Assembly (NCBI GenBank): GCA_937127125.1
Contig: CAKZLO010000048.1
Coordinates: forward strand, 1-64,000
From: an uncultured Ardenticatenia bacterium
GTDB lineage: Bacteria; Chloroflexota; Anaerolineae; 4572-78; NAK82
DNA: 64,000 bases
Direction: 5' to 3'
In this document: in pieces, positions 295-13,011 of the stretch
Numbering within the stretch: position 1 is the first letter of the stretch
How the letters are laid out: every line of letters starts with the position of its first letter
Made by a program: the position numbers and the translations under genes
Notes under the pieces: model-generated
Told to the model about the DNA's origin: nothing
Databases searched by the model: none
Seen by the model: the letters and a program-made list of their open reading frames with translations, nothing else

Positions 295-591
295 CTACAC
301 AATGTACACCTCCGGTTCGTCTGCCAGCAGCTTCGCCTGACCCAGCGCCAGAATCTGCCTGGCACAGGTCGCACACAGACGGTACACCCGCACGCTGTCC
401 TTATCCTCTTCCATAATGCTCCGAATCTCCCGCAAAAGACGGGTGATCTGCGCCTGGCTCAATGTGCACTCAAACACGCTATACTGTACGCGCTCCCCAT
501 AATCGCACAAGGCCTTCGCCAGGCGGACGCGCCGCCGGTCATCCGGTATATCGTAACTGACCAGGATGAACGTGGCATCTTTCCGAACCAT
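295..591 (-). CDS. cas2: CRISPR-associated endonuclease Cas2
   Basis: Cas2 is the small dimeric partner of Cas1 in the spacer-acquisition complex, where its main role is structural. The 98-residue protein has the usual length and the ferredoxin-like opening, with the first beta strand followed by an acidic residue (FILVSYDIPDD, about residues 8-18) and the YSVFE segment near residue 37. The start is ATG. It is the last protein-coding gene of the minus-strand cas operon, 24 bases after cas1, with the candidate leader and repeat immediately downstream. Confidence 0.95.
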   Translation of the reverse strand: MVRKDATFILVSYDIPDDRRRVRLAKALCDYGERVQYSVFECTLSQAQITRLLREIRSIMEEDKDSVRVYRLCATCARQILALGQAKLLADEPEVYIV

Positions 592-615
592 CGAGCGACC
601 AACACACCCACTCCC

Positions 616-1635
616 TCAACGCACGGTGAACGGGCGATAGACATCACCCGTGCGCATTGCCCGCGCCATCTCCTGCGCTTGCAGCTCGAAACAGCGTCGA
701 TAGGTGGTCTGCTCACCCGTCAAAGGGTGAGTAAACGGCACCCCCAGGCGCGCCTCAAACTCCCGCACAAAAGCATTACGCCCCGCCTCGCTCAACAAGA
801 CAGGTCTTTCGGGATCTTCCTGGCGACTGAAGTCTCCCATCCGCACCTGTCCACCATTCAGACAGCGCAACGTAACGCTGTCTACAACGATACAACGAAA
901 CTCCTCAGCAATGTCAAGCGCCAAACTAGGACGGTTGTGGGCATCGCTGTGCAGGCAGCCCAGATAGGGATCCAACCCAACCGCTTCGAGTGCACTTTCG
1001 AGATAGCGTAACAGCAATGTGTAGCCGAAGCTGAGCAGCACGTTGACCGGATCGCCGGGGGGCCGGCGCACTCGCCCCACAAAGTTCCACTGTGGGTCGC
1101 GCAGCAGCCAGCGGAAGACACCGAAATAGGCCGCCGTGCCGGCGCCCTCCACTCCACGCAGGCTGTTGAGGCTACGCACGCGCTCCACGTGATGCATCAG
1201 ATCGAGCAGTCGATCGATGGCTGCCTGCAGCTCGGGACGTGCCCGCTCGCGCTGGTAACGTTGCAGCAGGATGCGCATATTGTGCAGCTTGGCGCGCACA
1301 ATGGCACGCCCTGTCTGCAGTACAAATGCTGCATCGTCCACACGTCGATATTGCCAGCGTCGCAGCGTGCTGTAGCCATTTGTTGCGCCCACCACACGCC
1401 CACGGTAGTGACCGTATTGATCGCAGAATATCACGTCGATGCCCTGACCCATCAGACTGGTCAGCGCCGGCGTGGTGATCGAGACATTGCCGAAGATGAG
1501 CACACGCTCTACCTTGATAAGTGGCACACTCTGCAACACCTCATCCTCTTTAGTCACCACCAAGCGCCGGCTCTCCTTGTGGATTTTCGCACCCTGCTCA
1601 ACGACATACAAAGGGGGCATCGGTTGCATCTCCAC
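616..1635 (-). CDS. cas1: CRISPR-associated endonuclease/integrase Cas1
   Basis: Cas1 is the metal-dependent integrase that inserts new spacers at the leader end of the array. At 339 residues it has normal length. The N-terminal beta domain (about 8-95) is followed by the alpha-helical catalytic domain with the expected signatures: a glutamate in GVEGAGTAAYF, a histidine in CLHSDAHN, and acidic residues in LALDIAEEFR. The first possible start is GTG, with in-frame ATG codons two and five codons later. It lies 19 bases after cas6. Together with cas2 it shows that the locus encodes its own acquisition module. Confidence 0.96.
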   Translation of the reverse strand: MEMQPMPPLYVVEQGAKIHKESRRLVVTKEDEVLQSVPLIKVERVLIFGNVSITTPALTSLMGQGIDVIFCDQYGHYRGRVVGATNGYSTLRRWQYRRVDDAAFVLQTGRAIVRAKLHNMRILLQRYQRERARPELQAAIDRLLDLMHHVERVRSLNSLRGVEGAGTAAYFGVFRWLLRDPQWNFVGRVRRPPGDPVNVLLSFGYTLLLRYLESALEAVGLDPYLGCLHSDAHNRPSLALDIAEEFRCIVVDSVTLRCLNGGQVRMGDFSRQEDPERPVLLSEAGRNAFVREFEARLGVPFTHPLTGEQTTYRRCFELQAQEMARAMRTGDVYRPFTVR

Positions 1636-1654
1636 GCCAATGCATCGCAGCCCA

Positions 1655-2527
1655 TCATCCCACCTGCCGATCGAGTCGATCCGGCCAGGACGTGTCCTTT
1701 TCCTCAGCTCGAGGCATCGTTATATTTCGCACCTGCCCCAGGCCGGACGCCGTGCCATAGCCCACTCCGCTGTAGAAAGCATACGCCGCCAGCAAGTTCA
1801 ACGCGCTCAGCCAGTAGCGGTCGCGGTTGAGTGCAGTGAAGGCCACCCGGCCACAAAAGCCGATGAACAGCGCACCCTCTTTGCCCGGGAGCGAGTGGGT
1901 GCGCAAGGCATAGCGTGTCACCACGACCACTTCGGCAGCAAAGCGACGAACTTCGGGACTGAGGGCTACCGGAGCGAAAGTCTGCCAGCGCTCCAACAGG
2001 CTGCCAAACACCAGCTCGGGCAGTGGCAAAGGCACATAGCGTCCACTGCTACGGAAGGTGGTCGGCGAGACAAAGTCGAGCTCCACACGCGATGTCACCT
2101 GACGCGCCCCATCCAGCAGGTAACATATTGCCAGCGTCTGGTAGTCGCTTTGTGCGGCCCATGGATGCACCGATGCATCCAGCGTGGCGCCCAGCACGCG
2201 CAATGGCAAGCCGTCTATGTCCACTTCATCAGGTGGGCTGGCCGCCAGGCGCATCAGACAGGCACTTACCGGCTCCGTCAGGCCGGTAAAACGCAGCCAA
2301 CCGTGCTCACCCGGTCGCACAATCAGGCTGCCTGCGGCGCGACGCCCCAACATCAAATTCGAAGCCGTGTATGGGCGCGGCCCCTCATCGTCATGCAGTT
2401 GCGTTGCCAGCGCGGCGTCTTGTTCGCCAACCAGACGCAACAGCAACGCCTGCGTCGCACGCCCCAGACTGGCAGGCAGGTTACCACCTTCCCGTGCTTC
2501 CAACTGCATGACCAAACTGGTGAGCAT
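1655..2527 (-). CDS. cas6: CRISPR endoribonuclease Cas6
   Basis: Cas6 cuts the CRISPR precursor transcript inside each repeat. The 290-residue form starting at the ATG at 2527 is preferred over an upstream in-frame ATG at 2560 because a GAGAGA-containing purine-rich stretch precedes it and the family's conserved sequence starts there. The glycine-rich C-terminal loop typical of RAMP-fold Cas6 is clear (SGVGYGTASGLGQVR). A histidine at about residue 45, in LATQLHDDEG followed by PYTAS, is a reasonable catalytic candidate by family comparison. It sits between the accessory effector gene and cas1, 19 bases before the latter. Confidence 0.9.
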   Translation of the reverse strand: MLTSLVMQLEAREGGNLPASLGRATQALLLRLVGEQDAALATQLHDDEGPRPYTASNLMLGRRAAGSLIVRPGEHGWLRFTGLTEPVSACLMRLAASPPDEVDIDGLPLRVLGATLDASVHPWAAQSDYQTLAICYLLDGARQVTSRVELDFVSPTTFRSSGRYVPLPLPELVFGSLLERWQTFAPVALSPEVRRFAAEVVVVTRYALRTHSLPGKEGALFIGFCGRVAFTALNRDRYWLSALNLLAAYAFYSGVGYGTASGLGQVRNITMPRAEEKDTSWPDRLDRQVG

Positions 2528-2583
2528 CCCAATTCTCTCTGAATAAATGCAAAGGCACAAAGACGCTCAAACTTGCTTCTGTG

Positions 2584-4278
2584 CTAAGCTATGCGTCTCC
2601 CTCTTGCCTCTTCGCGCACTTGTTGCAGATTGATAATCTCAGCTGCCTCAAAGCGGGGCGGCAAGACGTCCTCTACCGGCCGCATGCGCACTACGGGTGC
2701 AAAGTAGCCCATACGTCCATGTAACTCGGCAAGCAGTGTCATTGCGATGGCGCTGAGCGTAGACGGATTCACAAAGATGGCCGCGTGTTGCCACTCCTCA
2801 GATGTCAGGCCGAGACTGTCGACGAGTTCGCGGACCTGCTCGGCAAAGGGCCTGGTGTGATCAAAATGCGTTGCTACTTCGATCAGCCGGTCGATTGGCC
2901 CGCCGATCAACTGCTCGATCTGCGTGCGTTGTTCCTGGGTCAATGGATGTCCGAAATTGAGCAGGATCATTTCCTTCTCCATTGTGTCCACAGATCGTTC
3001 CCTCTCTTCCAAAACCAGATTGCTTCCTTCTACGAGCTCTTCGGCCAGATCGTGCAGGTCGCAAACCACTTGCCGTGCTCTTCGCAACAGCGAGGACGAT
3101 CGGGATGCGTCAGGTCGCATGCCGGCGTGAGCCAAATCGTTACGCAGCCTGGAAAGTTTGTTCCACACATCGACGAGACTGTACCTCGACGCCAGATCGG
3201 CCACCTCATCGGTAAAAGGTGTGTCTTGAGGAGGTCTTTGCTTGCTCTGAGAACGCTGCCATTCCGCTACGTTGGTAATGGCTGCCTCGACTTGTTCACG
3301 GGCGTCCCGGTCGGTCAGCGCTTTATCGGTCAGATGATAGAGCAGGAGCGAGATGAACCACTCACGCGCTAAGGTGATTGCCTGGACAACCTGTTCCTTC
3401 TCCATGTACCAGCGCACAATTTCCCATTGGACGCGTAAATTGTCCAGGCGCCTGTCGAGATCCTGCGGGCTGGCCAGAGCCAGAGAGCGATAGGCCTGGA
3501 TGATGCGATCGGTCAACAGGGAGAAGGGACGCGCATGGGTCCTCACGATGTCACATTGCCTCTGTAATCTCTGCACCAGTCGTTGCGCTTGTTCCATTGA
3601 CTCCAGAGGACGGCTAAGGCGCAGCGCCAACGAGACTGCTTCCATAGCCTCGGCAGTCCACTTCAAGCTCTTGCCCAGCCGGCGTGCCTTCTCATTCTGC
3701 CCCATCTGCACACCGGTCGGCATGCCGGCACGGAGCAATTCAGCCAGGTCGCGCGCGTCGCCAAAGCGGGTAAAGCGGTCCGTTGCCACGATCCAATCCA
3801 GCAGGGTGACAAAGGGGGTCAAGTCGAACACTGGGCTTTCGTTCCGCTCATTGCGCGCTTCATAGGCTCCGTAGTAGACGCGCTGCACGTCCACTCCCTT
3901 GGCCTTCCTCAGATAAGCGACAGCCAGGAAGCTGAGGAAGGGCAATGAGCGGAAGCCGTTGGTGATGTCGACAACCAGCTCGCTGCCATCAGGTACGCGT
4001 TGGGTGAGTGTGTCGAAGATGTCCCACAGCTCCTCTTCCCGACAGCCGTCGGGGATGAGCACTTCGATGGGCTGGGTTACGGTGTGGATCTCGTCGGCGA
4101 GTGTCTCAAAATGCTTCTGACGTGCCGCCTCGGTGACCACAATCAGGGTGTATTCGGGCGTGGGTTCCAGGAAGCGTACCAGCGCAGCAGCGAAGTAGCG
4201 CGTCTCGTGGCGCTGCATACCCATCACGTAAGTGGTGACTTTGAGGTCAGCAGTACCCAAGAAAGTCAACAAGTACAT
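2584..4278 (-). CDS. CARF-HEPN ribonuclease (TIGR02221/Csx2 type) with C-terminal Csx15-like domain
   Basis: The N-terminal half is a CARF sensor of the TIGR02221 family: it opens YLLTFLGTADLKVTTYV and carries the ligand-loop motif DITNGFRSLP at 104-113. A HEPN ribonuclease domain follows, with catalytic RxxxxH as R379-N-D-L-A-H384. Such proteins are cOA-activated RNases of type III systems. Residues 433-564 form an extra domain beginning MILLNFGHPLT and ending with LLAELHGRMGYF and AEIINLQQVREEAR; I recognise this as the small protein Csx15, usually a separate gene. The total of 564 residues is too long for an ordinary member. An in-frame ATG at codon 437, preceded by GGAGAAGG, could release the Csx15 part separately. 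The gene lies between the Card1-like gene (62-base gap) and cas6. The CARF and HEPN calls are firm; the Csx15 call is from memory of the family. Confidence 0.85.
   Translation of the reverse strand: MYLLTFLGTADLKVTTYVMGMQRHETRYFAAALVRFLEPTPEYTLIVVTEAARQKHFETLADEIHTVTQPIEVLIPDGCREEELWDIFDTLTQRVPDGSELVVDITNGFRSLPFLSFLAVAYLRKAKGVDVQRVYYGAYEARNERNESPVFDLTPFVTLLDWIVATDRFTRFGDARDLAELLRAGMPTGVQMGQNEKARRLGKSLKWTAEAMEAVSLALRLSRPLESMEQAQRLVQRLQRQCDIVRTHARPFSLLTDRIIQAYRSLALASPQDLDRRLDNLRVQWEIVRWYMEKEQVVQAITLAREWFISLLLYHLTDKALTDRDAREQVEAAITNVAEWQRSQSKQRPPQDTPFTDEVADLASRYSLVDVWNKLSRLRNDLAHAGMRPDASRSSSLLRRARQVVCDLHDLAEELVEGSNLVLEERERSVDTMEKEMILLNFGHPLTQEQRTQIEQLIGGPIDRLIEVATHFDHTRPFAEQVRELVDSLGLTSEEWQHAAIFVNPSTLSAIAMTLLAELHGRMGYFAPVVRMRPVEDVLPPRFEAAEIINLQQVREEARGRRIA
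2971..2980 (-). promoter_or_regulatory. possible internal ribosome binding site for a separate Csx15-like product
   Basis: Within the CARF-HEPN-Csx15 gene the minus strand reads GGAGAAGGAA directly before an in-frame ATG (2970-2968). That ATG encodes the methionine where Csx15-like similarity begins. The spacing of the strongest GGAG core to ATG is 6 bases. It may be only the lysine/glutamate codons of the linker, but its position is suggestive of an ancestral start codon kept after a gene fusion. Confidence 0.35.
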
Positions 4279-4340: not shown

Positions 4341-5252
4341 CTAGGAGCGACACGGCAGCCGCTCCGCGATGCGTTGGCGCAGGCGTTGCACGTCGCCGTC
4401 ACTGAGCTTCCTGAGTCCTCCGTGCCAGTCTACCAGCTCGATCACGCTGATGTTGAGCGCTCCGGCAATTGCTTTATACTGTTCGTCGCGTGTCTCGCCG
4501 GTAACTAAGAAGCGGGCGGCGTAGGTACCCGTGAGCTCACGCGCGGCAGCGGTGGTCAGCTGGTCCACAGCGTGCTTGCCGCTCCCACTGCCGCCACTTT
4601 TCACCTCGATGAAACCGACCTGATTGCCACAGCGGATGACCAGATCGATCTCAACCTGCTCCTTGAGACCGGCCGGGCGAACGCCACGCTTAATTTCATC
4701 TACACAACCGCGCAAGGCATCGTAGACCGCTTTTTCCAGCTCACCGCCTTTCTCTTTGCTGGAGCTATTCTCCTCGTAACCATCGAAGTGAGCCCAGAGA
4801 TAGTCATCCAGGCGGATGGGATCTTGATCCAGCACAATGCGATCCTCAAGCGTGGCTGTATCATCCTGCCAGTAGTAGCGGTAGAGCACGCTCTGTTGAT
4901 CGCGCCCGCGCCGACCCTCGGTCTGTAGATAAAGAAAGGGGCTGCGAAATTGCCGGGCCAGATCGTAGGCAGCCAGTACCATGGTCTTGGTACCGCCAGT
5001 GAGATTGAAGAGAAAATCTCCGCCCGAGGACATCATCTCTTGTTGGATCTTGTCGCGGATCGAGGCGATGTTGTAGGCGTCCTCTATCTTGAGCGGCTGG
5101 GTCTCGGTATCGGAGAGCAGATTCCGCAAGCGACGGGTCTGATCCTCGGTGTGCTTGGTATGCACCAAGACTACTCTCTCCGGCTTGAGGTAACGCGCCG
5201 GCAATAGATTGGGGATGGGCTGCTCGCCCACCAGGGCCACCATCGTGGTCAT
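4341..5252 (-). CDS. Card1/Can2-like CARF nuclease (CARF plus PD-(D/E)XK)
   Basis: This 303-residue protein combines an N-terminal CARF domain (about 4-125, with the loop FNLTGGTKTM at 92-101) and a C-terminal restriction-endonuclease fold. The nuclease residues are visible as E181 (GELEKAVYDAL), D203 (EIDLVI) and E216-V-K218 (FIEVKSG). Card1/Can2 enzymes are known to be switched on by cyclic tetraadenylate to nick DNA, some also cutting RNA. It is shorter than well-studied members, leaving little room for a linker domain. The ATG overlaps the csm5 stop as ATGA, and the ribosome binding site AGGAGG lies in the last codons of csm5, so translation is probably coupled to the Csm complex genes. 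Confidence 0.87.
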   Translation of the reverse strand: MTTMVALVGEQPIPNLLPARYLKPERVVLVHTKHTEDQTRRLRNLLSDTETQPLKIEDAYNIASIRDKIQQEMMSSGGDFLFNLTGGTKTMVLAAYDLARQFRSPFLYLQTEGRRGRDQQSVLYRYYWQDDTATLEDRIVLDQDPIRLDDYLWAHFDGYEENSSSKEKGGELEKAVYDALRGCVDEIKRGVRPAGLKEQVEIDLVIRCGNQVGFIEVKSGGSGSGKHAVDQLTTAAARELTGTYAARFLVTGETRDEQYKAIAGALNISVIELVDWHGGLRKLSDGDVQRLRQRIAERLPCRS

Positions 5253-6388
5253 TCCTTCACCTCCTTCATTTCCACCAGCACCCAGCCGAGGGGGACAATG
5301 GGCAGTTCGCGCGTCTGACCGCTGGTTGAGCGTTCCACTTTGACCAACACGCGTCGGCTTTTCGGAAAAGGATCACCGGGCTGCCGCCTGCCGCGGGTCA
5401 TCTTGTAATCTCGTAGTATCGTTTCCATAAAGCCTGGGTCGCTCTGGAGATGGCTACCAAGAGTTTTACTGTCCCAGCCAGTGCCCCAGCCCAGCTGCAT
5501 GAAGAACTCGTTGTCAGCAAGCGCTTCCTGCTGCCATTCTTTGTACAACTGCACTAGGCGTTGGCTGTTCGGAACGCTGCTCAATAAATTGAGCTCCTGT
5601 GTCAGCCGGTGAGTGTAATAAGCACGCATCACCTGCGCCAGCTGCATCACCATATTCTCCCAACGCAGTTTGAGTTCATGCTGCTCAGCCCACCGCGAGA
5701 AAAGCATAGTGTCCACCTTCAGTGTGAGCTGCAGCTCGGTTTCAGGTCTCAAGGCCTCCAGCTCAATCGGTGCACCCAACGAACCACCTCGATTGAGCAC
5801 GCGCGCGTTGACCAGCATCAGCTGTTCTGGCGAAACCGGCGCGCTGTCAGACACTTGCAGCGCGCGTAGGGTGTCCTTATTCGGTGCCTTACCACTGTGC
5901 TCGCTGAACATCTCCTGCTCATACCATTGGGCAGCGAAGCGACGATCGCGACCCAGCTGTGCCCGCTCGGGACGTAGCTTGAGCGCACGCCACGCTGTCC
6001 ACGCTAATGCTGTGCGCAACGCCCCCTTCACGGTCGTGCCGGGCAGGTAGGGGCGATCGTAGACGTCCTTGATTTGTTCGCGCAACACAGCGCCAGGCGC
6101 ATGTGAGCGTGGCGTTCCCTTGATGACATAACGAAAGAAAGGACTCCCCATCTGGTAATCACGCGGCTGCAACAACTGCTTCGGTGGCGTTTTGGCCAAT
6201 CGATCAGCCAGTGCCGGATCGTCGGCGAGTTGCGCTTCCAACAATGTATTCTCGTTGATCCGCCATGTGTGCCCATTCTGAATGGCATAGTCATACTCAT
6301 TGAGCAGCTCGCGTCCATTACCGATATGCAATGGTGTGAGCGTGCGCACAATTACCCGATACATACGATAGCCATCCCGCTCGCTCAT
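5249..6388 (-). CDS. csm5: type III-A CRISPR RAMP protein Csm5
   Basis: Csm5 caps the 3' end of the crRNA in the Csm complex and helps recruit crRNA-trimming nucleases. Starting at ATG 6388 the product has 379 residues. This start is chosen over an upstream one at 6436 because AGGAGGG precedes it and it overlaps the csm4 stop by four bases (ATGA). RAMP features include the first strand with LTPLHIGNG and the glycine-rich PGTTVKGALRTALAW near residues 118-133. The stop overlaps the next gene by four bases, so csm4, csm5 and the CARF nuclease are translationally chained. Confidence 0.9.
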   Translation of the reverse strand: MSERDGYRMYRVIVRTLTPLHIGNGRELLNEYDYAIQNGHTWRINENTLLEAQLADDPALADRLAKTPPKQLLQPRDYQMGSPFFRYVIKGTPRSHAPGAVLREQIKDVYDRPYLPGTTVKGALRTALAWTAWRALKLRPERAQLGRDRRFAAQWYEQEMFSEHSGKAPNKDTLRALQVSDSAPVSPEQLMLVNARVLNRGGSLGAPIELEALRPETELQLTLKVDTMLFSRWAEQHELKLRWENMVMQLAQVMRAYYTHRLTQELNLLSSVPNSQRLVQLYKEWQQEALADNEFFMQLGWGTGWDSKTLGSHLQSDPGFMETILRDYKMTRGRRQPGDPFPKSRRVLVKVERSTSGQTRELPIVPLGWVLVEMKEVKE

Positions 6389-7578
6389 TGAGATCCCTCC
6401 TGTATGCCAATCGCCAGAGCCAGTCCGTAGCGCCACACGGGATGTTCAAGCCAGCTGGTGGAGCTGCGATACACGGGTCGCACATCGACCACATCGCCCC
6501 AAGGGAGTTCGCCCACTGCGTGAACAATGCTGCCCTCGCTCACGAGCCACACGCGGCGGCGGCGCTGTGCTGGAGAGCCCCATGTGCGCAGCCAACCGCC
6601 CACCGGTATCAGGCTATATCCCCACGCCCGCGTGAGCGCATTGGGCAGCTCTTTTGCGCGCGGATGGTAACGGCTGAGCAGCAGAGCTGGTGTGCCCTGT
6701 TGTGGGTCGGGCAGCTTAAGCCGCCGATCAGCACGCTCCCAGCGAAACGCACCGTAGCCGGTAGTGCGTTCGCCCCCTACTCCGTCATCACCCAGCAACG
6801 TCAACAGGCGCTCCATAGTAACGCGGTAGCTCGACTGTCCTAGTGGCGCATCGGGATCACGCCACTGAATTCCAAACCACAGTCCACAGTTCGACGCAAA
6901 GCAGACACGGCCGGCGTGGAAAATCTGTGATGCCGAAGTAATGCGACTAATTGTGACGCGCGGCACCTGCACATTGGCGAACACGCGTCGTTGCCGCAAT
7001 GTACGTCGCGGCAACGTGCGATGGCATTTTTCATCGCGCGTCCAGTGTACTGGTAGCTGGTCGCACTCGTCGACGGTCAGCCAGAACGCTCCTCCCTGCA
7101 GTGCGACTCCTTTGGTTGGTTCTGCCTTTGCGTCAGCCGGGAAGAGCCACCCCTCCATCTGCTCACCCTTTAGTATCCTCTCTAGAATGCCCGGCGATAC
7201 GTAACGGATGCGGCTGATGTCTTTGCGCCGTTCCTTGAGCACCTCGGATCCAAACAGGTGCTGTAATGCCACCGGCATTGGGAAAAACAGCACCGCACCA
7301 GCATAGGGAAAGGCACTTGTGAGTACAAAGGGTGCATTGGCCTCACTGTGTTCCCAAAGGTCATTCTCAGGTGCTGCGCCAGCTTGCCTCAGCTGTGCAC
7401 GGGGGAAAGATTCCATCCACTGTGCCGGCTCGCCTCCGTCGCGCCGGTAGGTATCCACTAACGCGGCGAAAAGCGAGTCCGATGGGATGCAGACGCCACT
7501 TTCCTCCAGCGTAACGGCATGTGTGCCGATATGGAGTCCGCCCGGAAACGAGAGACGGATGACGTCAAGCGTTGGCAT
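6385..7578 (-). CDS. csm4: type III-A CRISPR RAMP protein Csm4
   Basis: Csm4 binds the 5' handle of the crRNA and contacts Cas10. The 397-residue protein starts with a typical Csm4 opening (RLSFPGGLHIGT, with IPSDSLFAALVD following) and has the glycine-rich loop GDDGVGGERTTGYGAF in its C-terminal half. It is somewhat longer than the roughly 300-residue members best known from Streptococcus. The ATG is preceded by GGAGG at good spacing, 24 bases after csm3. Confidence 0.92.
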   Translation of the reverse strand: MPTLDVIRLSFPGGLHIGTHAVTLEESGVCIPSDSLFAALVDTYRRDGGEPAQWMESFPRAQLRQAGAAPENDLWEHSEANAPFVLTSAFPYAGAVLFFPMPVALQHLFGSEVLKERRKDISRIRYVSPGILERILKGEQMEGWLFPADAKAEPTKGVALQGGAFWLTVDECDQLPVHWTRDEKCHRTLPRRTLRQRRVFANVQVPRVTISRITSASQIFHAGRVCFASNCGLWFGIQWRDPDAPLGQSSYRVTMERLLTLLGDDGVGGERTTGYGAFRWERADRRLKLPDPQQGTPALLLSRYHPRAKELPNALTRAWGYSLIPVGGWLRTWGSPAQRRRRVWLVSEGSIVHAVGELPWGDVVDVRPVYRSSTSWLEHPVWRYGLALAIGIQEGSQ

Positions 7579-7602
7579 AATTGCCTCCTTTCCGCAGCTC
7601 GG

Positions 7603-8439
7603 CTACGCCGGGAGGCCAAGGGCTCGCTTGACCTCTTTGATAATGGTAGCGCGCTCCTGCAAAAGATTGCTTAGGCTCGGGTATTCTCCAATTTGCTGTG
7701 GCTGATCCAGATAGCTGCCGTTGGCGCGCACACCCAGCTGGATGTTTGCAAAACGCACCTTGCCAGAGCCACGCGAACCCAACCCACCCAGGTAGTCGTC
7801 TTCCAGCAACTGCATCGCGGTGAAGAGCGCTTCCAGGCGTTCTACATCGCGCTCAGCGTTGCAACCGTCGCCTTCGTAGACGCTGTAAACGAACACGTCT
7901 CCGCCCGCGCTGCCAAATATACTGCCTGCCGGCACGCGCTCCATCTGGCGTGGATTGGCTGCCGAGGTGACACGGTCGATCGAGACCTCAACCTTCACCT
8001 CAGTATAGGGTAGGTCGGTGCGTGCCGTCTCTTCCAAACGCTTAGCGCTCTCGTCGCTCAGGTGCATATCGCGTACCACCAGACGAGTAGGCGTGGCAAA
8101 GTCGCGCTCACCGGGCACTCCGAATACCTGGCAGACATCACACCTTGCGTAATCCTGTCTGCCCTTTTCCTTGTTATCCGCGCCACAGGAATGAATATAG
8201 CCCTGTCCGATGCGCTGGTTTTGGGGCAATCCGCGATACTTCTCTAACAGGCTGCGCATCTTGCCCTTGAGCGAGGAACCAGGGATATAGGGTCGGTTGG
8301 TGAGTGGATCGCGGATGACCGTTTTGTCCACGCCACCGATCTCGATGCCGGTCTCGGATCCACCGATGTGCAGTCCTGTCACCGCCTCAATTTCAAAACT
8401 GAGAAACACGCGTCCTTTCAGCTGGATTTGTTTAGCCAT
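7603..8439 (-). CDS. csm3: type III-A CRISPR backbone RNase Csm3
   Basis: Csm3 forms the multi-copy backbone of the Csm complex and cuts the target RNA at six-base intervals. The 278-residue protein contains TGLHIGGSE at 21-29 and the catalytic aspartate segment GVDKTVIRDP; D38 lines up with the known active-site aspartate of the family (D33 in the streptococcal protein), so RNA cleavage should be intact. PGSSLKGKMRSLLE follows, and a cysteine cluster (HSCG and CDVCQVFG) suggests a zinc site. The start is supported by GAGGAGG. It follows csm2 by 17 bases. Confidence 0.96.
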   Translation of the reverse strand: MAKQIQLKGRVFLSFEIEAVTGLHIGGSETGIEIGGVDKTVIRDPLTNRPYIPGSSLKGKMRSLLEKYRGLPQNQRIGQGYIHSCGADNKEKGRQDYARCDVCQVFGVPGERDFATPTRLVVRDMHLSDESAKRLEETARTDLPYTEVKVEVSIDRVTSAANPRQMERVPAGSIFGSAGGDVFVYSVYEGDGCNAERDVERLEALFTAMQLLEDDYLGGLGSRGSGKVRFANIQLGVRANGSYLDQPQQIGEYPSLSNLLQERATIIKEVKRALGLPA

Positions 8440-8456
8440 AGGTTGTCCTCCTCTTC

Positions 8457-8921
8457 TCAGTCACCGCCATACGCCTTGTGATAGGCCAGGATTGCCTCAA
8501 AGAACTCCACAAAGCGCTGGTAATTCTCATCCTGATTATCGCGGCTACCCCCAGCCTGTTCTTTGGGTTTCGCTTTCACCACCAGATCAAGCGCTGGCTG
8601 TAACACATTCACAAGATCGCGTACCGCGCTGCCGCGCTCCTTGCGCGCTCGATAAGCCATCTTCGGCTTAAGCAGGATAAGCCGTCGCAAGGCCTGCTGA
8701 CGCCGTCGCTCGATTGCCCACTCCGCCTGGATCTGGCGCACCTCACCGAAGAGCGCTCGAATCTGGCTGGTGGTCAAGCCGCTATCCTTGAGATTCTTTC
8801 CCAACTGATCGGCCCAGTGCACCAGCGTCTCCGCCCCATTGGGATCGGTGATAATGGTGCGCAGGTCCTTTTCCGAAGGACGAGGCACAGCCTGTTGTGG
8901 ATTGCCTCTTGACTGATTCAT
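8457..8921 (-). CDS. csm2: type III-A CRISPR small subunit Csm2
   Basis: Csm2 is the small helical subunit that lines the belly of the Csm complex along the target RNA. The 154-residue protein is slightly longer than usual but carries the family pattern LTTSQIRALFGEV followed by LKPKMAYRARKE and a C-terminal helix with FVEFFEAILAYHK. The first 20 residues look disordered. The start codon ATG has GGAGG eight bases upstream. It lies between cas10 (105-base gap holding a hairpin) and csm3. Confidence 0.92.
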   Translation of the reverse strand: MNQSRGNPQQAVPRPSEKDLRTIITDPNGAETLVHWADQLGKNLKDSGLTTSQIRALFGEVRQIQAEWAIERRRQQALRRLILLKPKMAYRARKERGSAVRDLVNVLQPALDLVVKAKPKEQAGGSRDNQDENYQRFVEFFEAILAYHKAYGGD

Positions 8922-9026: not shown

Positions 9027-11636
9027 TCACCGTTGTACTGCACGGCGCAACAGCAGGTCCACCCAGCGTGCTGCCAGGCCTATCCATTCGATGGCACGGA
9101 AGTTGTCCGCCTTCAGCTGATCAGCCAGCTGGTCGATTTCTCTATCGCCACGATTCTTCTGGCGTTTCGCCATCCGTTTGAGCATGTAATGAGTGCGCCA
9201 CATCCATGGGCCCCACAACGTCTGCTCCTCACCCTGACGGTTGAGTTCTTCACCACACGCACACCGCTTCCGCGCGGCCTCATCGTGCTGTTCCTGAGCA
9301 CGCATCAGAATGCGTAACAATGCCTCCGGCACACCCATACCGCCTTCCTCGGGGCGACTGGTAAGATGCAACAGCAGCTGGGCCAGGCTGCTGACCGTAT
9401 CCAACCCCTGCGGAATTGGCTGCGCCAACCCGAAACGCTCCCACGCCACCGTCTGCCCCAAGAAGGCAACGGCATCCTTGGTACGCTTGAACCCATTTAC
9501 GCTCCCTTCATAACCTTTGGCATCGCTCTCGGCCTTGCCAGCGTCGTGCGCTGCCTGATAGAGCGGATACTTGCCACCCACCAGAACGACACCCGCGCTG
9601 GCGTGGATGCCGGGATGACCCGCGGCGAATGGCGTCAGGTCAGCACGCACACGTCGCGCCAGCTCGATCACACGATCCCACGCTCCTACAAAGAACAGAT
9701 CATCGCCGCCTGAGTAGATTGAATAGAGTGTCTCGCCGCGCGGCACACCTTTTTTGATCTCTTCGGTTGCCGTCTCCCGGTTCATGCTCTGAGCTAAGTA
9801 TTCCACCCAGCCTTCGAAATAGAGGCTAATTGCAAAGCTGAGTGTCGCCACACGAGACAAGGTGGCGAAGCGACGCACAACGTTGCCATTCTTGTCATAC
9901 TCGGTGAAGCCGTCACTGAACAGCCTGCCACCATCATCAAGGTCCATGCGCAACACACCCAACCGCTGGATCCCCCTCGATTGTGCCTCCAGCAGTGAGA
10001 AGGGCTTTACATCACCCTCTTTCTGGTCCTTCTCCACTTTATCAGGGAAGTGTTTAAGGTCAGCATGCGTCACACAGGGTGTGACATTCACCAGGAAGCG
10101 TCGTCCTACCGCTGTGGTGCTTGTGGGGCCAAGTCTCCCAAGCGCTTCGTCATCCAGCGCCAACACCACTCCCGCGCAACCGCCAGGGGTCGGAGGTTTC
10201 TCGTGCACCGCAGCCTGCCAGCCGAAAGCGGCCAAGACCTCGTGCCACTGCCCAGGTTGCGTCTGCGCCAAACTTGGAGAGGTCTCGTTGCCTGAAACCA
10301 CACATTCACGCAGTTCCAAGTAACGCGCGCGGCGCAAATCCTTGCCCAGCTCCTCGTACGATGCACACGGCGGGCATTTGCGCACCCCTTCCTCCTCGCC
10401 CGGTCGCTTGGATTCAACGGTCCCCGGGTGTTCGCGCCCACACACGGCGCACTGCTTTTCCTCATTGCCGCCATCCTCTTGGGGTGCGAACACATCTGAC
10501 AGCACTTTTTCGGCCTCAGCGAAACGATGTTGCTTTGTGTTGCGCAATGCGCGAGCCAGCTCCTCCCATTTGCCAGAGATGCGCCCATCGAAGAAGTCGG
10601 CTGCAGCCAATGGTACGCCAGCCAGCGCCAAGTAGAGGTCACCGCGATGATGCTGCCATAGCCGTCCGCTGATCTGGCGCTGGATGCGCTGCAGGTTGCT
10701 ATGGTCTTCAGCCCGTGCCAACAGGTAGAAGCCGCCACCACCCTGATAGATCAGGTTGCATACCGGCAGCCCAAGCTCGCGCAGCACGTACCGCGCCAGC
10801 ACCTCAGTCAGCAGTTGTAGATAGAACGAACGCCCACGCAAAGCGCTCGCTGCACCCTGCGAAGTGATGGTGTAAATAAAATCCTGCACGCCGGAAATAT
10901 CACCGCCTACCAGTAAAGCTACCTCGGTCGGATTCGTTTCGGGCGACTGGAGTAGCTTATCCAATTGCTCTTCATCGAAGGCATGCACTATAGCGGCCAG
11001 CGCTGCAGTCATGCGGCTGTGGTCATACAGGCTGACATCCGGCTGAGAACGATAATAGGCCGACGGTACGCACCACGTGTATTGCTGCATCAACAACAGC
11101 AGGCTCTCCAGATAAACCGCCAGTTGCCCCTCCTGGCTGTGCACGTCACAAAGTTGCTTCGCCTTAGTCTGGAAGCCAGCCCACAGGTCGCCATAAGCTC
11201 CGGCGACATCCGGCAACGCTTGGCCTGGAAAGAGTGTATCGCGTTGCAGCGCCAGCGGCTTGAGCGGCCAATAGGCTTGGTTTTGGCAGCGCAGCACCCG
11301 AGACTCCCCCTGTTCGTTTTGCTGCTTGATCTGCAGTCGACAGAATATGGAAAGCAGCTGGCGTGGCTGTTCTGTATCCTCATCGGCGCGCTCGCCAGCG
11401 GAGAGCCGATCAGACAGCGCTACGACTTTGGTCAAACGGTCAATCAATGGTTTATCGTGGTGTCCCATCACTGGATACATAAAACTGCGCCAGGCAGGTG
11501 GCACGATTTCATTGACAATATTGCCACCTACCTCGGTGTGCTTACCTGGCCGTTTCGCCCGTTGTGCAAACTTGCCAATGTCGTGCAGCAGTCCAGCAAG
11601 AGCCGCCTGCAATGTCTCTTCTTTGATTTCAGCCAT
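9027..11636 (-). CDS. csm1: type III-A CRISPR large subunit Cas10/Csm1 (HD nuclease and cyclase)
   Basis: Cas10 is the catalytic large subunit: on target RNA binding it cuts single-stranded DNA with its HD domain and makes cyclic oligoadenylates with its Palm domain. Numbered from the ATG at 11636, HD residues H18-D19 (LLHDIGKFAQ) are intact and the cyclase signature GGDD is intact at 643-646 (IYSGGDDLFFVG). A first Palm with LLVGGDISGVQDFIY precedes it. Four cysteines at about 396, 399, 421 and 424 form the zinc-binding insert. The product has 869 residues. An upstream in-frame TTG is rejected because AAGGAGG, the ribosome binding site for the ATG, lies inside that extension. With both active sites intact, cOA signalling is expected. 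Confidence 0.97.
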   Translation of the reverse strand: MAEIKEETLQAALAGLLHDIGKFAQRAKRPGKHTEVGGNIVNEIVPPAWRSFMYPVMGHHDKPLIDRLTKVVALSDRLSAGERADEDTEQPRQLLSIFCRLQIKQQNEQGESRVLRCQNQAYWPLKPLALQRDTLFPGQALPDVAGAYGDLWAGFQTKAKQLCDVHSQEGQLAVYLESLLLLMQQYTWCVPSAYYRSQPDVSLYDHSRMTAALAAIVHAFDEEQLDKLLQSPETNPTEVALLVGGDISGVQDFIYTITSQGAASALRGRSFYLQLLTEVLARYVLRELGLPVCNLIYQGGGGFYLLARAEDHSNLQRIQRQISGRLWQHHRGDLYLALAGVPLAAADFFDGRISGKWEELARALRNTKQHRFAEAEKVLSDVFAPQEDGGNEEKQCAVCGREHPGTVESKRPGEEEGVRKCPPCASYEELGKDLRRARYLELRECVVSGNETSPSLAQTQPGQWHEVLAAFGWQAAVHEKPPTPGGCAGVVLALDDEALGRLGPTSTTAVGRRFLVNVTPCVTHADLKHFPDKVEKDQKEGDVKPFSLLEAQSRGIQRLGVLRMDLDDGGRLFSDGFTEYDKNGNVVRRFATLSRVATLSFAISLYFEGWVEYLAQSMNRETATEEIKKGVPRGETLYSIYSGGDDLFFVGAWDRVIELARRVRADLTPFAAGHPGIHASAGVVLVGGKYPLYQAAHDAGKAESDAKGYEGSVNGFKRTKDAVAFLGQTVAWERFGLAQPIPQGLDTVSSLAQLLLHLTSRPEEGGMGVPEALLRILMRAQEQHDEAARKRCACGEELNRQGEEQTLWGPWMWRTHYMLKRMAKRQKNRGDREIDQLADQLKADNFRAIEWIGLAARWVDLLLRRAVQR

Positions 11637-11684
11637 CCTCACCTCCTTCAACTTTGTCAGAGGGGCTGTACCGGGCCCAGGCCA

Positions 11685-11975
11685 TTACAGATCCATCCCG
11701 TCGTCCAATGGCCCACCGTCTCCAAAGAAGCCCTCGTTGTCTCCGAAAGGCCCTTCGTCACCAAAGAGCGTGTCTTCGCCGCCAAAGGGGTCTTCACTAT
11801 CGAAGAAGCCCGCGTCCTCACGCCCGGGCGGCCACCTGCCCCGCATAATGTCGATGGCAATCGGGAAAGGTATACCCATAATCGTGTCCGGCGCGAAAAT
11901 GTTGTCCTCCTCGTCCGCCCAATCCGGGTCATACTTGTCGTCATACTCGTCAAGATCATCTTGCTGGCGTGCCAC
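11685..11975 (-). CDS. small acidic protein with Phe-Gly-Asp repeats, unknown function
   Basis: I do not recognise this protein. The GTG start at 11975 is preferred because AAAGGAG lies six bases before it; the open frame continues upstream without a good site. The 96-residue product is about 30 percent Asp plus Glu with only five basic residues. Residues 5-24 are a very acidic run. A short hydrophobic stretch (IMGIPFPIAIDIM, 32-44) follows. Residues 57-96 repeat a phenylalanine plus glycine and acid unit about every 6-7 residues (F58, F64, F71, F77, F84, L90). It precedes cas10 by 48 bases on the same strand. Such charge and repetition suggest a disordered, binding or nucleic-acid-mimic protein; that is inference. 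Confidence 0.6.
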   Translation of the reverse strand: MARQQDDLDEYDDKYDPDWADEEDNIFAPDTIMGIPFPIAIDIMRGRWPPGREDAGFFDSEDPFGGEDTLFGDEGPFGDNEGFFGDGGPLDDGMDL

Positions 11976-12108
11976 AGTCCACTCCTTTTGCGATAGCCCT
12001 TTCATCAAACATATAGTACCCTGCACATTGCTCCAGCGCATTGGAGATTTATCGAATTGAGATTGTAGAAAGTAATGATGCTCCTCAATGCCTTTCGTGT
12101 TATAGCTA

Positions 12109-13011
12109 CTAGGGTGAGCGTTCATCCAGATAACGGAGAAAACGGGCGAAGTGATCGTGCACAAAGTGGTACGAGAGATAGGCATCCTCCGGCAGATTCC
12201 ATGCAATGCGACACTGATCAAGGATGGCTGTCTTGTGAGCGTTGACCGTCGCCAGGGTGACGTGCAAGCGTTCAGCAATATCCTGTGGTGTACATCCAGC
12301 AGCCAGCAGACGCAATACCTCGCGCTGTCGCTTCGTCAACTGTGCGAACACATTCTGACAACGCGCATACTCAGTGGCTTCCAGCTCGGCAGTCTGGGCA
12401 GCGATAACCTCTGCCGACGAATGCACCAGCTTACGCAATGCCGGGAAGTAGGTGCCCCAAGGTACAAAAGGCACCCGGATGAGGCGCACACCATCCGTCG
12501 ATTGTGCGTGCATAACGGCGCCGTCGCGAGCACGTTTCAGAAACCCAGTGGGCGTGTACATATGCCACACGTGATCCTGATGACCACACAACAACATAGC
12601 TGCGCTGAACGTCAACAGAGCCATAGTGCGTCGGCCACCAGCGATGCACAGATGCAACGGACGCCCCTGGGCTTTCAACGTCGTCAACAGCTGGTATACT
12701 GCACACCAGACCGCATCAGCATCTGCCTCATTGCGAATGTCAGGCAGACGGAGATCATCATTATGTCGGATAGGTACCAGCCGCAGACGGCACGGGTGTC
12801 CGCGGTACTGGTCACCACCGAACTCGCGATGCAGCTGTTCCAATGCACGCTGGGTACATCGATACTCATCAGGGAGATCGGTGGTGGGGGACAGATGCAG
12901 CACCACTACTTCGCGAATGATCTCGCCGCGTGCCAGCAGCCAGTCCAGGGCGAAGGTCACTACTTGGGGTTGACCGCCCACAGTTACCAGAAGGATACTC
13001 TCGGTCTCCAT
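12109..13011 (-). CDS. CARF-domain LuxR-type transcription regulator (NE0113-like sensor plus HTH)
   Basis: Residues 4 to about 180 resemble the NE0113 branch of CARF proteins (ILLVTVGGQPQVVTFAL at the start and the glycine-rich loop CIAGGRRTMA at 122-131). Residues 225-265 are a clear LuxR/FixJ helix-turn-helix (LTKRQREVLRLLAAG then DIAERLHVTLATVNAHKTAIL). It should bind a cyclic oligoadenylate or related nucleotide and DNA. No nuclease motif is visible. It lies at the head of the minus-strand CRISPR operon, 133 bases before the acidic protein gene, and is divergent from the Csx3-like gene with 245 bases between them. It may regulate both the cas operon and its divergent neighbour. The HTH is certain; the ligand is inferred. 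Confidence 0.85.
   Translation of the reverse strand: METESILLVTVGGQPQVVTFALDWLLARGEIIREVVVLHLSPTTDLPDEYRCTQRALEQLHREFGGDQYRGHPCRLRLVPIRHNDDLRLPDIRNEADADAVWCAVYQLLTTLKAQGRPLHLCIAGGRRTMALLTFSAAMLLCGHQDHVWHMYTPTGFLKRARDGAVMHAQSTDGVRLIRVPFVPWGTYFPALRKLVHSSAEVIAAQTAELEATEYARCQNVFAQLTKRQREVLRLLAAGCTPQDIAERLHVTLATVNAHKTAILDQCRIAWNLPEDAYLSYHFVHDHFARFLRYLDERSP

Follow-up and report, generated by a model that had tools for sequence, protein, structure and literature searches.

The described system nearest in design to the gene analyzed here is Csx1-Crn2 (2020, PMC7293037), in which a CARF-HEPN RNase activated by cA4 carries at its C-terminus a ring nuclease that renders the effector self-limiting: when the ring nuclease is killed, the RNase runs on, and the H495A mutation lengthens the RNA cleavage triggered by cA4. 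The second relevant protein is Csx15, the dimers of which stack head to tail around cA4, some members of the family only sequestering this ligand and others cleaving it slowly (Chi et al. 2026, PMC13148439). According to the same study, PfCsx15 binds cA4 without cleaving it, residues H11 and R123 of PfCsx15 as well as H13 and H90 of CliCsx15 matter for function, turnover by Csx15 is slow, and CliCsx15 abolishes Csx1-based immunity in vivo. Csx15 also occurs as a part of larger proteins. Its fusion to CARF proteins "on several occasions" was mentioned by Makarova et al. (2014, PMC4012209), and these are fusions of the same architectural kind as the one described below. In the text of that paper that concerns them the function is only guessed (as a nuclease) and the proteins are left unnamed; the present lineage may be among them. 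Finally, CbCash (PDB 9ylu, 9ylv, 9ylx; 28 chains) is a fused effector with a C-terminal Csx15, as here, and differs from the present protein in having a Schlafen AlbA_2 N-terminus and in the replacement of both catalytic His residues of Csx15 by Gln.

The architecture of an effector fused to Csx15 is thus already known. The literature searched contained no functional study of a Csx15-effector fusion, no account of how such a fusion originated and no report of an internal Csx15 start; the possible dual product of the gene (see below) is the main novelty of the present case.

A CARF-HEPN-Csx15 fusion gene in a type III-A operon

The window analyzed is a 64,000-nt stretch of a contig from an uncultured Ardenticatenia bacterium, whose genome (3.73 Mb, 95% complete) has a single Csx15, the fused copy. 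The fusion gene (positions 2584-4278, minus strand) is an open reading frame of 564 codons without an internal stop that joins a CARF-HEPN protein of the TIGR02221/csx2 family to Csx15, and the same fusion is found in two congeners. Pfam returned nothing useful for either part, nor any Schlafen domain, so that the NCBIfam models with their curated cut-offs were needed. TIGR02221 scored 114.3 bits (E 7.7e-33; cut-off 76.25), with a match to residues 54-182, the score of the DxTHG domain model likewise exceeded its own cut-off, and the Csx15 model NF040560 matched residues 438-562 over its entire length (positions 1-125 of 125) with 160.4 bits (E 2.1e-47; cut-off 35). These results bear out the TIGR02221 CARF-HEPN assignment made in the initial annotation, including the intact RNDLAH motif; the HMM search against Csx15 that it proposed likewise gave a strong match, albeit with a corrected boundary, as Csx15 proper starts at M437 rather than at residue 433, and residues 433-436 belong to the linker.

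Along the chain, the CARF sensor domain takes up approximately residues 1-180 (3739-4278, minus strand) and carries a DITNGFRSLPF motif. In addition to the TIGR02221 match, it gave a profile match to the PDB entries 8y75, 8y7g and 8y6z (E 1.7e-15). Its nearest solved relative is the cA4-binding Csx1 part of Csx1-Crn2, which suggests, by extension, cA4 as the probable activator of the RNase. The HEPN motif R379-NDLA-H384 (3127-3144, minus strand) is intact; R379, N380, D381 and H384 are invariant among the six homologues aligned, and the motif was found in 9/9 relatives checked. The linker, residues 416-436 (2971-3033, minus strand), drifts fast: residues 401-436 share only 29-50% identity between the three fused species, and the pLDDT at residues 419-435 is below 50 in a low-confidence model. 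The remainder, residues 437-564 (2587-2970, minus strand), is the Csx15 domain with a predicted cA4 sponge/ring nuclease fold, identified by NF040560 and by a match to CliCsx15 (9teu, E 1.5e-20); profile searches gave no match of the C-terminus to the Crn2 model. Compared with Csx1-Crn2 of Marinitoga piezophila (PMC7293037; PDB 8y6z, 8y7g), the general plan is the same, an N-terminal CARF-HEPN RNase followed by a C-terminal ring-nuclease domain in a chain of nearly the same length (563 vs 564 aa). The brake itself is different, being in Csx1-Crn2 the fast Crn2 (AcrIII-1/DUF1874, ∼9 per min) and here, as proposed, Csx15, which is unrelated to Crn2 and would act as a slow enzyme or sponge forming stacks. 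Compared with the stand-alone CliCsx15 (9teu) and PfCsx15 (9tet; PMC13148439), the full-length domain and its key His and Arg residues are the same, and the difference lies in its being the C-terminal part of an effector instead of the product of its own gene.

The structure prediction called for in the initial annotation was of limited help. AlphaFold2 modeling of the whole chain from four sequences was poor (pLDDT 61, with most of the Csx15 part below 50), and the Foldseek matches of this model to Csx1-Crn2, although in line with the sequence, had low TM-scores and carry little weight. Modeled alone, Csx15 reached a pLDDT of 77, and a fold search with this model gave no significant match, so that the domain assignment rests on sequence. 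Neither model is good enough to inform on how the domains dock.

The gene lies in a minus-strand operon with the order cas10, csm2, csm3, csm4, csm5, a Card1/Can2-type CARF nuclease, the fusion gene, cas6, cas1 and cas2. The cas10/csm1 gene (9027-11651, minus strand) retains, by inspection of its translation, both the HD (LLHD) and the GGDD motifs, and cOA synthesis by its product is therefore expected. The type III-A backbone of csm5, csm4, csm3 and csm2 (5249-8921, minus strand) was recognized by Csm2 and RAMP matches and by comparison with the operon of a congener (G001) typed gene by gene, in which the csm-to-cas1 order is the same except for one additional gene between csm2 and cas10. That additional gene (L078, 8705-10843, minus strand) encodes a 712-aa protein with SLFN_AlbA_2 and a NACHT ATPase. 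A second cOA effector, the Card1/Can2-type nuclease (4341-5252, minus strand; Pfam CARF_Card1, E 3.5e-12), directly precedes the fusion gene, and cas6 (TIGR01877), cas1 (by synteny with the congener) and cas2 (PF09827) follow it (295-2560, minus strand). Neither the contig end beside the locus nor the stretch at 11.6-20 kb yielded a CRISPR array. Just upstream of cas10, the gene at 12109-13011 (minus strand) combines an NE0113/Csx14-type CARF (PF09623, E 1.6e-37) with a LuxR/GerE-type DNA-binding domain (E 4.3e-11), and its product is a candidate cOA-controlled transcription factor. Between this gene and cas10 lies an acidic, Gly/Phe-repetitive frame (DPFGGEDTLFGDEGPFGDNEG...; 11685-12110, minus strand) without a family match.

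Distribution and origin of the fusion

The fusion is present in 3/3 sequenced species of the genus. The two congeners (contigs JANXAX010000035.1 and QEXY01000129.1; Anaerolineae bacterium SKYB15 and Ardenticatenia bacterium Nak82, Chloroflexota) match it end to end at 69% identity without an internal stop, and an assembly error as the source of the fusion was rejected, since it is common to three species. In a survey of 396 genomes of the class, full-length matches without a stop came from the three genomes of this genus only. The C-terminal region is not a usual feature of TIGR02221 proteins, a point that the initial annotation had singled out as decisive: among plasmid-borne relatives 0/20 had the Csx15 region and none extended past residue 421, and the unfused members in the class also lack it.

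Csx15 itself is frequent in the phylum, with a match in 67/400 evenly drawn genomes (65 above the cut-off). In ∼21 other genomes of the class a separate csx15 directly follows the CARF-HEPN gene at a distance of -4 to +81 nt, and in nine of these the two genes share a 4-nt ATGA overlap. Such a pair occurs in a genome of the same order (G021) that retains the operon arrangement, with the gene order csm1-csm2-csm3-csm4-csm5, one 328-aa gene, CARF-HEPN, csx15 and cas1. At the junction of its CARF-HEPN and csx15 genes (...GAGGAGGCGGTGCAATGATCC...), an AGGAGG is followed by an ATG overlapping the TGA stop, and the ATGATCC of this junction is retained in the fused genes. In the tree of CARF-HEPN parts this genome is the sister lineage of the three fusions (99/98); the Csx15 parts of the latter group together in a single clade (97/99). 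The csm5 of the same genome (L075, 3525-5084, plus strand) has a C-terminal cold-shock domain.

Comparison of the two arrangements suggests that a net one-base shift in the linker joined both frames and left the old TGA out of frame; a single frameshift would explain the fusion, and one fusion event would be enough. The fusion would accordingly have arisen once, in the ancestor of the genus, from an adjacent, translationally coupled CARF-HEPN/csx15 pair.

Other candidates for a fusion were examined and rejected. The CARF-HEPN and csx15 genes of G560, listed with an open frame of 645, are separated by several stops. In G469, G644, G670, G530 and G624, listed with one or two stops, the two genes are neighbors rather than a readthrough fusion, and the sequence upstream of the other long csx15 frames (G054, G031, G373, G053 and G005) is noncoding or unrelated. 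Some further arrangements of csx15 were observed in the survey. In G019 (L081/L017) it comes right after a Card1-type effector, in frame past one TAA, and is followed by a second, very divergent csx15; a similarly divergent second copy is present in G022. In G390 (L070, 542-1273, minus strand) transposase-like sequence and the C-terminal half of Csx15 share one reading frame, passing from the former into the latter, and this csx15 was probably broken by insertion.

Conservation of the Csx15 part and its proposed role in the effector

Alignment with the characterized proteins places H444 (2947-2949, minus strand) at the position of CliCsx15 H13 and PfCsx15 H11, implicated in catalysis and cA4 binding, respectively, and H520 (2719-2721, minus strand) at that of CliCsx15 H90 and PfCsx15 H82 (functions from PMC13148439). 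R555, R559 and R562 (2593-2616, minus strand) repeat the 4/3 spacing of PfCsx15 R116, R120 and R123, and F543 is also kept. Both key His residues are retained in 3/3 fused proteins. On the other hand, the fused proteins lack the serine found two residues before the key His in PfCsx15 and CliCsx15; Gly precedes their His, with one residue fewer than in CliCsx15. Between species, the three fused proteins share 87-95% identity in the Csx15 part and 65-76% in the CARF-HEPN part, at a similar change of four-fold sites (26-54% and ∼30-45%, respectively), which indicates strong purifying selection on the Csx15 part as the most conserved. The fused Csx15 domain looks competent.

The same divergence bears on the question whether the fusion matters at all. 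A frameshift could have joined two co-translated partners in a nearly neutral manner, with a fixed stoichiometry as the only gain at most; one indel at an ATGA overlap suffices for this, and pairs of separate genes are common and evidently functional. We nevertheless regard such a history as improbable, as each of the three species of the genus still has the fused form in spite of the extent of four-fold-site change given above.

The best reading, which we consider moderately probable, is that the fusion is a self-limiting type III-A effector with a built-in timer or dampener, by analogy with Csx1-Crn2, the nearest protein in design, whose structures also match the CARF part best in sequence and fold. 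Upon target recognition Cas10 would make cA4, which would bind the CARF dimer and thereby activate the HEPN RNase. Csx15, at the C-terminus of the same polypeptide, would bind cA4 between stacked dimers and cleave it slowly, and small or stray amounts of cA4 would be mopped up, with the RNase response being delayed and time-limited. The analysis itself establishes the domain identities, the residues kept, the gene order, the distribution and the history of the junction as read from the sequences; the ligand, its cleavage, the timing role and the use of the internal start are what we infer. As some Csx15 proteins (PfCsx15) bind cA4 without cleavage, the domain could be a sponge only and, given the slow turnover of Csx15, a copy tethered 1:1 may be a weak timer. 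The initial annotation had also proposed a brake or ligand-buffering module, and this idea agrees with the 2026 biochemistry of Csx15 (PMC13148439) and with the residues kept; the novelty claimed for it is lost, considering the Csx15-CARF fusions reported in 2014 (PMC4012209), the self-limiting Csx1-Crn2 reported in 2020 (PMC7293037) and the structures in the PDB.

A brake is not the sole possible role, because CbCash uses Csx15 inside an effector. The domain might act as a second sensor and assembly module, with cA4 stacking the dimers into filaments, which would bring the HEPN domains together and help to activate them, and with cleavage being secondary or serving disassembly. In CbCash, a Schlafen-Csx15 effector, Csx15 is the only recognized ligand-binding domain (9ylu/9ylv/9ylx), the phylum has a comparable SLFN-Csx15 gene (L069), Csx15 oligomerizes on cA4, and filament-activated effectors such as Cat1 and CalpL are known (PMC13148439). 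We consider this role unlikely here, as the present effector already has its own CARF sensor, and in relatives the same partners work as separate proteins, so that they need not be physically joined to be active. Moreover, CbCash has Gln at both positions at which all three fused proteins have His, which argues for cleavage in the latter, although the rule is not strict, both His residues being kept in L069. The gene in question (G224, L069 574-1455, minus strand) encodes an SLFN_AlbA_2-Csx15 fusion related to CbCash (E 6.5e-51) and departs from it in having retained these residues.

A candidate internal start codon at the fusion junction

The self-limiting effector may have an additional layer. 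An internal ATG (M437; 2968-2970, minus strand), which corresponds to the codon at which the stand-alone csx15 of unfused relatives starts, is a candidate start of a free 128-aa Csx15, and a Shine-Dalgarno-like GGAG (2977-2980, minus strand), kept in all three fused genes, stands 6 nt before it. A ribosome-binding-like site ahead of an in-frame Met at the junction had already been pointed out in the initial annotation; it is indeed there, also in both congeners. The further suggestion that both a fused and a free Csx15 could be made from the one gene is at most supported suggestively: the conservation in 3/3 species is real, and its signal is weak when set against a synonymous-codon control (p ∼0.04-0.07).

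If ribosomes also start at M437, this gene within a gene would yield free Csx15 beside the fusion, and the brake could outnumber the effector, as may be the case in the ancestors with two genes. This is compatible with the self-limiting effector preferred above, and we hold it as a tentative possibility. Among nine conserved in-frame ATGs, M437 is the only one with a strong Shine-Dalgarno sequence in all three fused genes. With the sequences anchored at the ATG, invariant nucleotides make up only 11% of positions -75 to -13, and the sole 4-mer conserved among 72 windows is the GGAG at -10. The predicted strength (-5.8 to -6.6) matches the median of 31 stand-alone csx15 starts (-6.4). There are also precedents in the Rpn toxins with intragenic antitoxins and in Cas10d/Cas11d (PMC10327210), where a C-terminal regulatory part comes from an internal start; that case is experimental and the present one a hint from sequence. 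On the other side, the above p values are those with which the synonymous-codon null, given the amino acids, reaches such Shine-Dalgarno sequences in all three genes, 16/58 internal ATGs in the cas genes of the window score equally well, most of the true cas starts of this operon have a stronger signal (-7.2 to -14.3), no more than three species are known, and E434 and M437 could persist for protein reasons or as relics. The GGAG-N6-ATG at 2970 could be a still-working relic of the old start or a relic only. In the proposed history, the fused gene would still contain the former start codon of csx15 together with its ribosome-binding sequence, from which some free Csx15 may continue to be made. 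That one gene in fact encodes two opposing proteins, a cA4-activated RNase with its own sponge or ring nuclease and a free sponge from M437, we regard as rather doubtful.

Overall, the same two partners occur naturally both fused and separate in close relatives, with a readable path from a coupled pair to a fusion. The use of a slow, sponge-like Csx15 thereby becomes directly testable, in particular whether tethering sets a threshold or a timer and whether free copies are still needed. The comparison also sets apart two putative roles of Csx15, as a brake with intact His residues (here) and as a sensor that has lost them (CbCash). If the dual product proves true, free and tethered Csx15 could co-assemble on cA4, and both the threshold of the response and its duration would then depend on the relative amounts of the two products.
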